DNA from: Pseudomonas songnenensis
GTDB lineage: Bacteria; Pseudomonadota; Gammaproteobacteria; Pseudomonadales; Pseudomonadaceae
DNA length: 64,000 bases
Direction: 5' to 3'
NCBI RefSeq assembly: GCF_003696315.1
Contig: NZ_RFFN01000006.1
Coordinates: 62,001 to 126,000 of the forward strand
Part shown: one piece after another, positions 51,567 through 63,094 of the stretch
Layout: each line of letters opens with the position of its first letter
Numbering within the stretch: the stretch's first letter is position 1
The notes under the pieces: generated by a model
What the model saw: the letters and a program-made list of their open reading frames with translations, nothing else
Told to the model about the DNA's origin: nothing
Databases searched by the model: none
Translations under genes and position numbers: made by a program

Positions 51567-52409
51567 TCAGGCCAGTGTCCCATCGCGAAAATCCCGCAGC
51601 GCTTGCTCGATCTCCTCGCGGCTGTTCATCACGAACGGACCGTACTGCACGATGGGTTCTCGCAGCGGTCGGCCGGCCAGCAGCATCAGTCGTGCGCCGG
51701 TCTCGCTGTGTAATTGCAGCTCACCCTGTTCGGACAGGCGCACCAGCTGGCCCTTGCCGACCGGCTGATCGCCGACCTGCAGTGCGCCCTCGTATACATA
51801 AAGCAGTAACAGGTGGCCGTCCGGGATCTGCGGCGAGAACGTGCTACCGGCGGGCAAGTGCAGATCGAATAGCTGGGGCTCGGTATCGGGCCGCTGCACG
51901 ACGCCTTGGTGCTCGATGCCTTCCGTCTTCAATGTTCCGGCGATGACCTTGGCCTGTACGCCGTTTTCGAGGCGCACCTGGGGGATCTCTGCGGGTGCGA
52001 AGTCGCGGTAACCCGGCTCGCCGAGCTTGGCGTGGGCCGGCAGGTTCAGCCACAGCTGGAAGCCGCGCATGAGACCTTCCTCCTGCTCCGGCATTTCGCT
52101 GTGGATCACGCCGCGTGCCGCGGTCATCCACTGCACGCCGCCGCTTTCCAGCCGCCCGACGTTGCCCATGTGATCCTCGTGACGCATGCGTCCTTCGAGC
52201 ATATAGGTGATGGTTTCGAAACCCCTATGCGGGTGCGGTGGGAAACCGGCGATGTATTCGTCCGGATCGTTCGAGCCGAACTCGTCGAGCATCAGAAAAG
52301 GGTCGAACCGCTCCGGTGCTGCGCCGCCAAAAACACGTGTCAGGCTGACGCCGGCGCCATCGGAGGTGGGCCGGCCGGTCGTGATGGATAGAATTTCCCT
52401 TCGGGACAT
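51567..52409 (-). CDS. Pirin family protein
   Basis: Pirins are bicupin metal-binding proteins; some have quercetinase activity. The 280-residue product has the N-terminal cupin metal ligands FPPHPHRGFETITYMLEG and GVIHSEMPEQEEG, and a C-terminal cupin without obvious ligands. It converges with lpxL, 45 bases apart. The natural substrate is unknown. Confidence 0.92.
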   Translation of the reverse strand: MSRREILSITTGRPTSDGAGVSLTRVFGGAAPERFDPFLMLDEFGSNDPDEYIAGFPPHPHRGFETITYMLEGRMRHEDHMGNVGRLESGGVQWMTAARGVIHSEMPEQEEGLMRGFQLWLNLPAHAKLGEPGYRDFAPAEIPQVRLENGVQAKVIAGTLKTEGIEHQGVVQRPDTEPQLFDLHLPAGSTFSPQIPDGHLLLLYVYEGALQVGDQPVGKGQLVRLSEQGELQLHSETGARLMLLAGRPLREPIVQYGPFVMNSREEIEQALRDFRDGTLA

Positions 52410-52501: not shown

Positions 52502-53269
52502 TCATTCCTCGACCAGCAGGTCGCGTGCACGGCTGTAGACATACCGTACCTTCTCGTACTCGAACGGTGAGTTGAGCTGGCCGTAACGGAAGCTGGTGAC
52601 GTGGCGGGCGTTGACGGCGCGCAGCGCTGTCAGGCTCATCTCGCCACCGGTGGTTTCGGAATACTGCAAGAAGTCCATCTGTCGTTCGACGGCAAAGTCG
52701 GCCACGCGCCCGGTGGCATCGCGTAGATTCGATGGCCCCAGGGCCGGAATGATCAGATAGGGCCCCTGCGGCACTCCCCAATAGCCAAGCGTCTGACCGA
52801 AGTCCTCACTCTGGCGTACCAGACCCATGCGCGTGGCCGGATCCCAGACGCCGCCGACGCCGAGAATGGTGTTGAACAGAAAGCGTGCCGTGGCATTCGC
52901 GGCGCGCTGGCCCTTGAGCTGTGCGACGCTGTTGAACAGCGTCGGAATCTCCCCGAGGTTGGCGAAGAAGTTGCTCACGCCGGTGCGCACCGGCTGCGGT
53001 GTGACATAGCGATAGCCGCGTACCACCGGCAGCATGACCCACTGATCGAGCCGGTAGTTGAAATGGTAGATGCGTCGGTTCATCGATTCGAACGGGTCGT
53101 ACACGTCCAGCGCCTGGAACGTGGCTCGCTCGAATTCGCGTTGGTCCAGCCCGGGATTGAACTCCAGGTTGCGTAGCGGATGGGTGAAGCCATCCTCATC
53201 AGCCGTCGGTGATTCAGCAAAGGCCAGGCCACTGGCCAGGAGCAACGGCAGCAGCATTCCTTTAGCCAC
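52502..53269 (-). CDS. mlaA: MlaA/VacJ family outer-membrane lipid-asymmetry protein
   Basis: MlaA removes phospholipid from the outer leaflet of the outer membrane and passes it to MlaC. The 255-residue product has the family motif YDPFESMNRRIYHFNYRLD, SNFFANLGEIPTLFNS and ETFGQTLG-like FGQTLGYWG. Its signal (MAKGMLLPLLLASGLAFAES) has no Cys, so it appears not to be a lipoprotein, unlike classic MlaA. The GTG start 53269 overlaps the hydrolase stop by eight bases and has GGAG upstream. Confidence 0.88.
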   Translation of the reverse strand: MAKGMLLPLLLASGLAFAESPTADEDGFTHPLRNLEFNPGLDQREFERATFQALDVYDPFESMNRRIYHFNYRLDQWVMLPVVRGYRYVTPQPVRTGVSNFFANLGEIPTLFNSVAQLKGQRAANATARFLFNTILGVGGVWDPATRMGLVRQSEDFGQTLGYWGVPQGPYLIIPALGPSNLRDATGRVADFAVERQMDFLQYSETTGGEMSLTALRAVNARHVTSFRYGQLNSPFEYEKVRYVYSRARDLLVEE

Positions 53270-54554
53270 GGAAGAACTCCAGCATATGTTGAGCGTTGAC
53301 CCGGTAATTGAGGTTGCCGCAATGGCCTCCTCGCGGGTAGAGCGTCAGGCGATCACCGAAGGTACGGCGCAGGAAGCCGATATCACCGGCGCCGAGAATG
53401 ACGTCATCGGCGTTGTGCATGACTGCGATCTTCGGACTCTGACGCAAGTAGTCCTCAAGGGCGTAAAGGCTGACCTGCTGTACCAGCTGAGTCAGGCTGC
53501 CGCCGTCGTACTGTGCGCGCCACATGGGAATCAGCTGCTCGGTGATGTAGCAATCGAAGTCGCATAGCAGGGCACGCTTGAAGAAGGGCTCGAGGCTGGT
53601 GCTCTGGTTGATGGGGTAGTCCTGCGGGACGATCAGCCCGCGGCGGTTGATCAGGTCGGAAGTGAAGATGATGTCCGCCGCGGAAAAGCGGAATACCGAG
53701 CCGATCAGCATCGCCATCTGCTCGTCGCTGAGCTTCAACGTCGATTGCTGGAAGTCGTAGAGCATCGCCTCGTCGAGATCGATGTAGCCTCTGCGCTGGT
53801 AATAGCGGGTGAGCTTTTCCAGCACCACTTCATAGAAGGTGGTGTGGTCATTGATCCCGTCGACCCTGGTCTGTACCAGCTTGTCGAGATTGGCGACCGA
53901 GGTGTAGAGGTTCACCGGAGGGTTCAGCAACAGGACCCGTTTGAAATTGAAACTGCGCCGCGTCTCGTCCAGCTGGCTGACGAAGGCAGCATTCAAGGCA
54001 CCCAGACTGTAGCCGGTGAGGTGGAACTCGGTGACCTGCAGTTTGTGCTGTTGCGCGCGCACAGCCTGCATGACCCGGTACAGGTCCTTGGCATCGTCGG
54101 CGCTGATGCCCGGCGTTGCGTAGCGCGAGGCGGCGGACATGAAGTCGTAGCTGGTTGGCGAAGACAACTGCACCACGTGATAGCCGGCGCCGTAGAACAG
54201 CCGTTTCAGGGCCTCGGTCTTGCCGGCAGAGTAGTGCGCGCCGGTCCCGGAGATGATGAACATCAACGGTGCCGGGCCGCGCTGGCGGGCCAGACGATAG
54301 CGCAACTGTTTCACCGGCCAGAAGTTGTCCGGCAGGGTGAATTCCCGCTCCGGGCGAAGGCGCAGGCTGTAGTCGGCCTGATCGATGGCGTCGTCGCTCG
54401 GCACTTCTGCGCGCAGGTCGGCCGGCGTACCTGCGATGGTGGCTTCGAACGGGTTGGCCAGTGGGTAGCCGTATTCCTCAACGCCGAGATCGGCGGCATG
54501 CAGCGGCGTAACGATCAGGGCGAGCAGGGCGGTCAGGCGCAACAACAGCTGCAT
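53262..54554 (-). CDS. Secreted alpha/beta-hydrolase, function unknown
   Basis: The 430-residue product has a signal peptide (MQLLLRLTALLALIVTPLHA) and an alpha/beta-hydrolase core. The oxyanion region is LMFIISGTGAHYSAG, the nucleophile elbow GYSLGA contains Ser183, and NADDVILG and RGGHCGN supply probable Asp and His. ATG 54554 has GGAG six bases upstream and starts the signal peptide; ATG 54566 is also possible. It overlaps mlaA, which suggests a lipid-related substrate, but that is inference. Confidence 0.82.
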   Translation of the reverse strand: MQLLLRLTALLALIVTPLHAADLGVEEYGYPLANPFEATIAGTPADLRAEVPSDDAIDQADYSLRLRPEREFTLPDNFWPVKQLRYRLARQRGPAPLMFIISGTGAHYSAGKTEALKRLFYGAGYHVVQLSSPTSYDFMSAASRYATPGISADDAKDLYRVMQAVRAQQHKLQVTEFHLTGYSLGALNAAFVSQLDETRRSFNFKRVLLLNPPVNLYTSVANLDKLVQTRVDGINDHTTFYEVVLEKLTRYYQRRGYIDLDEAMLYDFQQSTLKLSDEQMAMLIGSVFRFSAADIIFTSDLINRRGLIVPQDYPINQSTSLEPFFKRALLCDFDCYITEQLIPMWRAQYDGGSLTQLVQQVSLYALEDYLRQSPKIAVMHNADDVILGAGDIGFLRRTFGDRLTLYPRGGHCGNLNYRVNAQHMLEFFRG

Positions 54555-54760
54555 GTACTTCTCCATTGCAGGCCGTTCGCGGCCTGTAGCGAGGTGACAG
54601 TGCTTCGCCTGCCACCCGTTCCAATCAGAACTGCATCGGCTTTCACATGCAAGCCAACATCGCTTTGGCAGCATCGCGTGCAATTCGATCCGTGGGTCGG
54701 CGCGGAAATGCGAACGGCTCGACATGGGTTGTCGAGCCGCTAGTGGTGTTGGCCGGCATC

Positions 54761-60349: not shown

Positions 60350-63094
60350 CTAGGTCGCGCTGCTCTGCAGGTAGCTGTCCAGGCAAGCATACAGCTGCCG
60401 GCTCTCCAGCGGTTTGCCGATGAACTCGTCCATTCCCGCGTCGAGGCCACGCTGGCGATGTTCGGCCAGCACATGGGCCGTCACCGCGATGATCGGTACG
60501 GCCTGCAGTTGCTGGTCCGCCTCCAGCTTGCGTATCTGCCGGCTGGCCTCGAAGCCGTCCAGCTCCGGCATCTCGCAGTCCATCAGAATCAGTTGCACCG
60601 CGTTCGGGTTGCGACGGTAGAGATCCACGGCCTGGCGTCCATTGTCGGCAAGCTGCACGGCATAGCCGCGCTTCTTCAGTAGGCCACGAACGACCATTTG
60701 ATTCACCGGATTGTCCTCGGCCACGAGGATGCAGGGTTCGCTTCTAGGCGTTGCAATCGGAGCCTGCTCGGTTTCGGCCAGGGCCGCGGGTTCGTGTTCG
60801 TAGAGTGCCTGCAATGCCTCGCGTAGCGGTCCGCTCTGCAGCGGGAGCGCCAGACTAATCAGGCGCAGATCGGGCGTCAGGGGCGGCGGCTCGTGAATCG
60901 GGGAGTAGAGCATGAGCACCCGCTGATTCGGCTCCAGCTGCGGCCGCAGGCGCTCCAGCCACTGGCTCGGACTACCCGGCCATGGCGCCAGCAGCACCAG
61001 CAGTGGCGGGGCGGTGAAATCGGTGAGGTAGTCCGGCAGGCGATCCGGCGTCAGACAGCGCTCGGTGCGCATGCCCCAGCGCCGCAGCAGATGGCTGAGC
61101 GCCTCCAGTCCCTGAGCGTCCTGCGAGGCGAGCAGCGCGGGCCGGCCCGCCAGCAAACCCGTCAGCGGGTCCTCAACGTCGGTAGCGGTCTGCAGGGGAA
61201 TTTCGAAGCAGAAGCGGCTGCCGCGGCCCGGGGCGCTCTGCACCTCGATATGGCCGTTCATCATTTCCACCAGCTCCTTGCTGATCGCCAGGCCGAGCCC
61301 GCTGCCACCGTAACGCCGGGTGGTACTCGAGTCGCCCTGGGAGAAGGATTCGAAGAGCTGCGCCAGCACCTCCTGGCGCATGCCGATGCCGCTGTCGCTC
61401 ACGCAGAACACCAGTCGCGGAGCACCATCCGGTGTCTCGCGACAGGACACCTCGAGCAGCACATGACCGTGCTCGGTGAACTTCAGTGCATTGCTCAGCA
61501 GGTTCATCAGGATCTGCTTGAGGCGCGTCGGGTCGCCGCGAATGCGTCGCGGCACGCCGGGCTCCAGTCCGACGTGCAGACTCAGCTGCTTTTCCAGCGC
61601 CTGAGCGGTGAACAGTCTGATGGTTTCGGAAATCAGGATTTCCAGGTCGAAGTCGATGTCCTCCAGGCTCAGCTTGCCGGAGCCGATCCGTGCGTAGTCG
61701 AGGATGTCGTTGATCACCGCCATCAGCGAATTGCCGGAGCTGGAAATGGTGTCCAGGTAGAACTGCTGGCTGCGGTCCAGCGGCGTTTCACGGAGCAACT
61801 GCAGCATGCCGAGCACGCCATTCAACGGCGTGCGGATTTCGTGGCTCATCTTGGCCAGGAAACGGCTCTTCGCCTCGTTCTCGCTGGCGGCCCGCTCGGC
61901 AGCCTCACGCGAACGGTAACCCTCTTCCTTGAGCAGGTTGATGCGGTCGGCCAGGCCGATGGAAAGGGTGATCAGCTCGAAGGCGACACTGGCCTTGACC
62001 ACTGCCGCGCCGTACAGGCCGAACAGTTCGACCCCCAGCGAGCCGGCGGTAACCAGGATGAAGGAGGCCAGCAGCACGCCCCAGGCCAGCGTGTAGTAGA
62101 CGCCGTAGCGCACGCCACGGCGCCAGACGAAGGCGCCGGCCAGCAGCAGCCCGGCAGACACGACGATCACCGTCACGCTGGCCAGGATGCTCCAGCTCTG
62201 CACGTCCAGCACGAGGCCGGAAAGCATGCTGCCGAATGCAGCCAACAGGGTGCAGCGCAGGAGCAGGTCGAGCCGCGGGAACAGCTCGCGGGTGTGCAGG
62301 AAATGCCGGCTGAACTGGATGGCGATCAGGCAGTGGCTGAACATCAGGGCATAGATGCCAAGCGCCACCAGCCCGCCATCGTCAGCCAGCCACTTGACCA
62401 GCAGACCATCGAAGGAAAGGGCGAACAGCCCGACGTTGAGGGTGTAGACCAGATACCAGAAGTACGCCGGTTCGCGCAGGGAGGCGAAGAGGAACAGGTT
62501 GTAGCAGAACATCGCGAACAGCACGCCATAGAACGCACCACTCAGACCACTCAGCTCCTGCTCTTCGGCGGCGCTGGCGTTGTAGGTGCTGAAGTACAGC
62601 GGTACGTAGAGCGTACTGGTCGTCTTTATCCGCAGCAGTAGCGTGGTGTCGCCCGGTGGCAGCTCGACCGGAAACCAGAAATTGCTGACTTTTACCGGCC
62701 GTTCCGCGAACGGGTAGATATCGCCGGTGAGCTGGCGACTGATGCTGCCGTCGGGGTAGCGCAGGAACAACTCGATATGGTCGAGCAGGGGATAGTTGAT
62801 TTCGATGAAGCCGCCGACGGGACTGGCAAGGCGGTTTTTCAGATCGGCGCGCAACCACCAGGTCGAGCTGTTCTTGCCTTCGTTGACGTGCCCGCCCATG
62901 ACTGGCCGAAAGCGCTCCGATGGCAGCGTCATGACCTCGTCGACGCTCAGCTCGCCATTCGGGTCCTCCAGATAGCGGGTACCGCTGCCCAGTGACTGGC
63001 GGGAATCGATGGAATCGACCACCACAGGCGTGAATGCCCAGACTTGAAGCGACAGGCAAAACAGCAGCAGAGCCAGGCATGAACGCGGCAACAT
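60350..63094 (-). CDS. Hybrid sensor histidine kinase with 7TMR-DISM sensor
   Basis: The 914-residue product has a signal peptide, a periplasmic 7TMR-DISMED2 domain (residues about 25-175), seven transmembrane helices (about 185-385), and a kinase core with His418 in FLAKMSHEIRTPLNG. Next come ATPase boxes (NLLSNALKFTEHG, SDSGIGM, RYGGSGLGLAISK). A degenerate receiver-like segment follows (about 640-740), then a full receiver with Asp839 in LILMDCEMPELDG. RetS and LadS share this sensor type. It lies next to the NAGGN-type peptidase gene, as PA3462 does in P. aeruginosa. Confidence 0.93.
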   Translation of the reverse strand: MLPRSCLALLLFCLSLQVWAFTPVVVDSIDSRQSLGSGTRYLEDPNGELSVDEVMTLPSERFRPVMGGHVNEGKNSSTWWLRADLKNRLASPVGGFIEINYPLLDHIELFLRYPDGSISRQLTGDIYPFAERPVKVSNFWFPVELPPGDTTLLLRIKTTSTLYVPLYFSTYNASAAEEQELSGLSGAFYGVLFAMFCYNLFLFASLREPAYFWYLVYTLNVGLFALSFDGLLVKWLADDGGLVALGIYALMFSHCLIAIQFSRHFLHTRELFPRLDLLLRCTLLAAFGSMLSGLVLDVQSWSILASVTVIVVSAGLLLAGAFVWRRGVRYGVYYTLAWGVLLASFILVTAGSLGVELFGLYGAAVVKASVAFELITLSIGLADRINLLKEEGYRSREAAERAASENEAKSRFLAKMSHEIRTPLNGVLGMLQLLRETPLDRSQQFYLDTISSSGNSLMAVINDILDYARIGSGKLSLEDIDFDLEILISETIRLFTAQALEKQLSLHVGLEPGVPRRIRGDPTRLKQILMNLLSNALKFTEHGHVLLEVSCRETPDGAPRLVFCVSDSGIGMRQEVLAQLFESFSQGDSSTTRRYGGSGLGLAISKELVEMMNGHIEVQSAPGRGSRFCFEIPLQTATDVEDPLTGLLAGRPALLASQDAQGLEALSHLLRRWGMRTERCLTPDRLPDYLTDFTAPPLLVLLAPWPGSPSQWLERLRPQLEPNQRVLMLYSPIHEPPPLTPDLRLISLALPLQSGPLREALQALYEHEPAALAETEQAPIATPRSEPCILVAEDNPVNQMVVRGLLKKRGYAVQLADNGRQAVDLYRRNPNAVQLILMDCEMPELDGFEASRQIRKLEADQQLQAVPIIAVTAHVLAEHRQRGLDAGMDEFIGKPLESRQLYACLDSYLQSSAT

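Follow-up and report, generated by a model that had tools for sequence, protein, structure and literature searches.

What a gene for a putatively secreted hydrolase is doing when its last codons run into the start of a gene for an MlaA-family protein is the question raised by a locus of Pseudomonas songnenensis, which lies within the 64,000-nucleotide stretch of DNA analysed here (positions 62,001 to 126,000 of contig NZ_RFFN01000006.1; hereafter the window). The original prediction, made from the sequence of the window, was that the hydrolase carries a signal peptide and a Ser-Asp-His core, that the signal of the MlaA homologue has no cysteine, and that the two overlapping genes could form a variant of the Mla system that processes lipids at the outer membrane. 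The features referred to below are as follows, with coordinates in the window.

51567..52409, minus strand: pirin-family gene (assigned by Pfam), the next gene 3' of mlaZ on the same strand, also found beside mlaZ in PA7
52502..53269, minus strand: mlaZ orthologue, encoding an MlaA-family protein of 255 aa from a GTG start (based on PF04333, the structural model and the tree)
53262..53269, minus strand: 8-base overlap of the mlaY stop with the mlaZ GTG (read from the sequence)
53262..54554, minus strand: mlaY orthologue, encoding a putative secreted alpha/beta-hydrolase (lipase) of 430 aa (based on the open reading frame, identity to PA7, the triad and the model)

The gene pair and its identity

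The reading frame of the hydrolase, which has its stop at 53262, can be entered from an ATG at 54554 or from an in-frame ATG at 54566, yielding proteins of 430 and 434 aa, respectively; the first of these is favoured because a GGAG is present a few bases upstream of it. A GGAG is also present, inside mlaY, a few bases upstream of the GTG at 53269 from which mlaZ is read (the last base of its stop is 52502), and since this site falls within conserved mlaY codons, its conservation does not constitute independent evidence. The predicted overlap of the two genes is thus confirmed and measures eight bases. When one genome per species was scanned, 512 places were found to encode a relative of the hydrolase, and the best 80 of these, which were retained, represent close relatives (72–94% identity in the best segment). 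In all 80 of these best loci mlaZ is located directly downstream of mlaY, and in 79 of them the same in-frame overlap of eight bases between the GTG and the mlaY stop is found, which indicates that the arrangement is not due to chance. The exception is PA7, where mlaZ starts at an ATG three bases past the mlaY stop and no overlap is seen; hence, the overlap is dispensable.

Inserts follow the overlap in three of the 79 loci (L014, L018, and L059), where the true start of mlaZ may differ. In L014 and L018 the insert is about 130–140 bases long, has inverted ends (of the CAGGC-GTTTAAAAAC type in L018) and lies directly past the mlaY stop at the mlaY/mlaZ junction, and a shorter form of it is present in L059. 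It resembles a small non-coding mobile element, and similar sequences occur at G000:C1:846297-846414 (71%) and G000:C3:73576-73637 (81%). Around the pair in the window, a promoter scan returned no promoter-like sites and a terminator scan returned two terminator-like sites, as compared to a mean of 3.2 in shuffled sequences.

The two proteins from the window show 76% (MlaY, over 410 aa) and 65% (MlaZ, over 232 aa) identity to those of P. aeruginosa PA7, and the order and orientation of the genes actP-DUF485, DUF2061-mlaY-mlaZ-pirin, htrB, and minC-minD are common to both, although in PA7 about 1.4 kb lies between DUF2061 and DUF485, and likewise between pirin and htrB, which is more than in the window. 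When six long loci were compared, htrB, minC, and minD were present in all of them, no pirin or DUF2061 gene was found in L056 or L079, and no actP in L030 or L045. The pirin gene is treated here as a neighbour of the MlaYZ system. Based upon synteny and sequence identity, the two genes, which come from a relative of Pseudomonas stutzeri, are syntenic orthologues of PA3238/PA3239 (MlaY/MlaZ) of P. aeruginosa. The connection from PA7 to these PAO1 locus tags is based upon the PA7 synteny, the matching active-site numbering, and the gene order of PAO1, which we take to place PA3238 and PA3239 at the mlaYZ position.

The discovery of PA3238/PA3239 and their naming as MlaY/MlaZ are credited by later papers to Guest et al. 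(2023, PNAS), and a number of studies deal with the system in P. aeruginosa (PMC12569750, PMC11131202, PMC11977310, PMC10474453, PMC10925693, PMC12923597). In the accessible parts of this literature, the proposal is that MlaZ withdraws mislocalised phospholipids from the outer leaflet and hands them to the lipase MlaY, the active site of which is reported to consist of Ser187, Asp388, and His415, and MlaY together with MlaZ is said to rescue an E. coli pldA mutant from its sensitivity to SDS/EDTA. Under sphingosine, cardiolipin is described there as no longer being degraded in mutants of mlaY and as being degraded less in those of mlaZ and mlaA. The activity of CtpA is stated to be lowered by co-overexpression of mlaYZ and by neither gene alone, and the effect of yohD on CtpA to be unchanged by deletion of mlaYZ, so that the link between MlaYZ and CtpA is unsettled. 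In an older screen, a PA3239 mutant is listed with reduced survival in the mouse airway (PMC2246019). The association of the hydrolase with outer-membrane lipid removal, as a side branch of Mla, agrees with what is proposed in these reports for P. aeruginosa. The prediction thus holds in broad terms, but the MlaYZ system has already been described in that species and is not a new one, and the occurrence of the pair here is real but ordinary.

The two proteins and their proposed action

The Ser-Asp-His core is present in the window MlaY as Ser187, Asp388, and His415 when the 434 aa form is numbered (183/384/411 when counting from 54554), and the numbering in the longer form is identical to that reported for P. 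aeruginosa MlaY. The three residues are invariant in all 26 aligned sequences, and also in all 20 homologues, down to 28% identity, of an alignment from which G144, G290, and G343 were omitted; Gly185, Gly189, and a Gly-Gly-His-X-Gly-Asn motif are likewise invariant across these 20. The N-terminus has a hydrophobic stretch with small residues after it and, as judged by eye, resembles a signal peptide. No Pfam or NCBIfam family matched the hydrolase above its threshold (the best Pfam match was DUF915, with E=0.0099 and 15.7 bits against a cut-off of 22), a phmmer search against PDB chains gave no match up to E=1, and the PHROGs collection yielded nothing for it and one family of unknown function for MlaZ.

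The predicted structure of MlaY (pLDDT 88, pTM 0.87) has the secondary structure of an alpha/beta-hydrolase with a large helical insert at about residues 220–375. In this model Ser187 lies between a strand and a helix, and Asp388 and His415 are found in loops after late strands, so that the triad residues appear to be positioned as expected. A Foldseek search with the model matched 1137 PDB chains at E<=0.001; among the best 50 of these, TM-scores by query ranged from 0.33 to 0.42, and a membrane phospholipase A (6i8w) was ranked 10th. In a second structural comparison, Z-scores of up to 20 were obtained with esterases sharing 9–16% identity. The predicted fold thus supports an esterase or a lipase and does not fix the substrate, the nearest solved folds at these identities being a mixture of esterases, lipases, thioesterases, and peptidases. 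This is consistent with a reading in which MlaY is a periplasmic esterase for some other lipid or ester (e.g., a lysophospholipid, cardiolipin, or a lipopeptide) that is supplied by MlaZ, with general clearance of glycerophospholipids being secondary, and it is cardiolipin loss that was the effect measured in one of the available reports. However, MlaY is constantly paired with an MlaA-family protein, the E. coli pldA mutant is reported to be rescued, and a PldA match was present in none of the 28 MlaY-positive genomes sampled; hence, we consider this reading to be unlikely.

MlaZ is matched over residues 57–250 by the Pfam MlaA family (PF04333, E=1.6e-67), and it scores 102.9 bits against the NCBIfam PRK15091 equivalog, which represents ordinary MlaA and has a curated cut-off of 375 bits. 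The structural model of MlaZ is of moderate quality (pLDDT 73, pTM 0.62, with residues 14–38 below 50 and the other four models below 48), and its nine structural matches at E<=0.001 are all entries of MlaA complexes (5nuo/5nuq/8i8r; target-based TM-scores reach 0.81). The window genome also encodes, at other places, an ordinary MlaA and an MlaC. In an unrooted tree, for which the program warned of long branches meeting, a single branch with support of 100/99 divides 23 MlaZ rows from 22 rows of ordinary MlaA. The MlaZ rows came from 22 of 27 genomes and PA7, the MlaA rows mostly from the same genomes, and those left out were mostly further rows of the Pseudomonadaceae; the ordinary MlaA of G667 was not included. 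Tyr229, Phe236, and Glu237, all of which are carried by the window MlaZ, were found in 22 of 22 MlaZ rows, whereas among the ordinary MlaA rows Phe236 was seen in 0 of 22 (Asp being present there in 21 of 22) and Glu237 in one of 22. Phe236 and Glu237 belong to a FEYE run at residues 236–239.

Ahead of the MlaA domain, at about residues 20–56 (53102-53212, minus strand), MlaZ of the Pseudomonadaceae contains a strongly conserved stretch, DGF..PL..LxFNPGLDQREFER, which has no visible counterpart in the ordinary MlaA of the window genome and is a candidate site of contact with MlaY.

The pair is very probably the MlaY-MlaZ module, in which MlaZ, as an MlaA-type outer-membrane protein, would remove mislocalised glycerophospholipids from the outer leaflet and hand them on the periplasmic side to MlaY, by which, as a Ser-Asp-His alpha/beta-hydrolase, they would be hydrolysed; this module would work beside the MlaA-MlaC retrograde route and stand in for PldA. 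In the present work this mechanism is based upon orthology, synteny, the triad residues, the family and fold of MlaA, the coupling of the genes, the presence of a separate MlaA and an MlaC, and the lack of a PldA match, and the substrate, the direction of transfer, and the phenotype are taken from what is given in the P. aeruginosa papers; for P. songnenensis itself we infer the function by orthology. It is quite improbable that the coupling of the two genes serves only their expression, with MlaZ feeding MlaC as an ordinary MlaA would and MlaY acting on any periplasmic phospholipid, for although MlaZ appears to retain the MlaA fold and the available text of a review has the roles of MlaA and MlaZ as probably overlapping, MlaZ is separated from ordinary MlaA in the tree and has C-terminal residues of its own, mlaZ comes directly after mlaY in 27 of the 28 genomes (the stretch from G174 ending early), and CtpA is reported to be affected only when both genes are co-overexpressed.

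Possible modes of membrane anchoring

The absence of a cysteine from the signal of MlaZ, which was judged by eye, extends to the entire protein, and in the 25 codons between its GTG and the preceding in-frame stop there is no ATG, GTG, or TTG. Because no such upstream codon exists and the product is devoid of cysteine, no usual start of mlaZ gives a lipoprotein, and lipidation from an alternative start of these kinds is thus not to be expected. The lack of a lipobox is no special feature of the pair, and in the Pseudomonadaceae it is not diagnostic, because the ordinary MlaA of the window genome lacks one too. By an author-made motif rule, ordinary MlaA of this family has a lipobox in none of 17 loci, and, according to a review, no lipoprotein signal peptide has been reported for MlaA of P. 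aeruginosa and P. putida. Judging from these sequence counts, the lack of the lipobox characterises the bacterial family as such and does not point to a new system.

The lipobox counts were made with author-made permissive and strict motifs in place of a trained predictor, by which boxes such as LPGC (L134, ordinary MlaA) are missed. Among the best 80 of the 512 loci, a permissive candidate was found in MlaZ of 12 and in MlaY of one (PA7), none of these fitting the strict motif; some Pseudomonas MlaZ proteins may thus be lipidated. Outside the Pseudomonadaceae, where the broken pair of G144 was excluded and the examined stretch of the G174 locus contains no MlaZ, a candidate was present in eight of nine MlaZ proteins with a readable start (six of them strict; L112 lacks one) and in three of eight readable MlaY proteins (L086, L089, and L113). 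A lipid anchor therefore seems to be both dispensable and variable.

No lipobox candidate was found in the window MlaY, and the accessible text of a commentary calls MlaY a lipoprotein. The MlaY of PA7 (L080) has a lipobox-like ALGC that is absent from the window, and the anchored partner may differ between species.

Helices of the MlaA type are embedded in the membrane. By analogy, we infer that such helices, rather than a lipid anchor, would hold the window MlaZ in place. The window MlaY would probably be soluble in the periplasm.

Distribution and comparison with known systems

With the MlaY profile, matches were obtained in 11 of the 369 genomes sampled from the class and in 19 of the 398 sampled from the phylum, which correspond to 28 distinct genomes including that of the window; for G290 and G343 the match, which lies at an edge of the examined stretch, covers no more than the C-terminal part of mlaY. 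In 27 of these genomes mlaY is immediately followed by a gene of the MlaA family, and in the 28th (G174) the examined stretch ends about 250 bases past mlaY. The co-occurrence of the two genes is thus maintained both in these genomes and in the 80 close loci, and none of the three outcomes that would have spoken against the original prediction (an unconserved pair, an incomplete triad, or lipidation of the MlaA homologue from another start) was observed. Seventeen of the 28 genomes belong to the Pseudomonadaceae, the pair being present in 17 of 17 sampled from this family, and among the listed non-matching genomes, which are ordered by closeness, none is of that family. The remaining 11 come from nine other gammaproteobacterial families, in eight of which MlaZ adjoins, the ninth being represented by the G174 stretch that ends early. 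At least one further MlaA is encoded elsewhere in each of the 27 genomes, and G174 shows one MlaA only. In G144 (L093, L094, and L096) frameshifts and a stop disrupt mlaYZ, which is intact in another genome of that genus, G353. To the known system, these sequence comparisons would add its breadth, the strict pairing, the separate branch of MlaZ, and a family-wide lack of the lipid anchor, and owing to the breadth, comparative work could test whether MlaYZ serves as an alternative to PldA.

PldA, the job of which is thought to be similar, namely clearing phospholipid from the outer leaflet, was searched for by means of PF02253. This family gave no match to the hydrolase at E<=1, none in the whole window genome and none in the 28 MlaY-positive genomes. 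PldA was detected in 95 of the 369 genomes of the class sample but in none of its 11 MlaY-positive members (hypergeometric test, p=0.036 when counted by genome and p=0.063 when counted by genus); two of the 11 are only 81% and 85% complete, so that the absence carries less weight there. The further 17 MlaY-positive genomes also lack PldA, 15 of them being Pseudomonadaceae and hence not independent. The negative association between PldA and MlaYZ is therefore suggestive only. Within genus g83 one genome has PldA and one has MlaYZ (G080 and G205), and the same holds for family f141 (G139 and G348 versus G667). That MlaYZ serves where PldA is lacking has already been suggested in the literature, in the parts accessible. 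A further proposal, which we put forward tentatively and consider somewhat more apt to fail than to hold, is that MlaYZ is a portable substitute for PldA, the two having been exchanged for one another across the Gammaproteobacteria, even within a genus (g83), that MlaZ was a lipoprotein in most of the carriers, and that the Pseudomonadaceae have lost the anchor from both MlaA paralogues, their Mla entry proteins being held by protein alone. If true, what would be new is the exchange with PldA together with the anchor loss, the substitution for PldA being in print.

Three known systems may be compared with the pair. PldA (OMPLA) of E. coli is a beta-barrel and has a presumed job similar to that of MlaYZ, but the hydrolase has no PF02253 match and its model matches alpha/beta-hydrolases. 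One paper, in its accessible text, presents MlaY as a homologue of E. coli PldA that is integral to the outer membrane (PMC11977310), a description that these two observations do not fit. With ordinary MlaA (VacJ; MlaA-MlaC-MlaBDEF), MlaZ has the MlaA domain and fold in common, and it differs from it in its own branch, its conserved N-terminal stretch (in the Pseudomonadaceae), its distinct C-terminal residues, and its hydrolase partner. MlaY-MlaZ of P. aeruginosa differs in that in PA7 mlaZ begins with an ATG past the mlaY stop, whereas in the window a GTG overlaps mlaY by eight bases, and in that the PA7 MlaY carries the ALGC box, whereas the window MlaY has no cysteine before residue 335. 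P. aeruginosa is said, in the parts of the papers accessible, to be without PldA, as is the window genome by our search, and the two pairs are alike in their synteny, triad residues, and gene order and in the presence of a second MlaA elsewhere in the genome.
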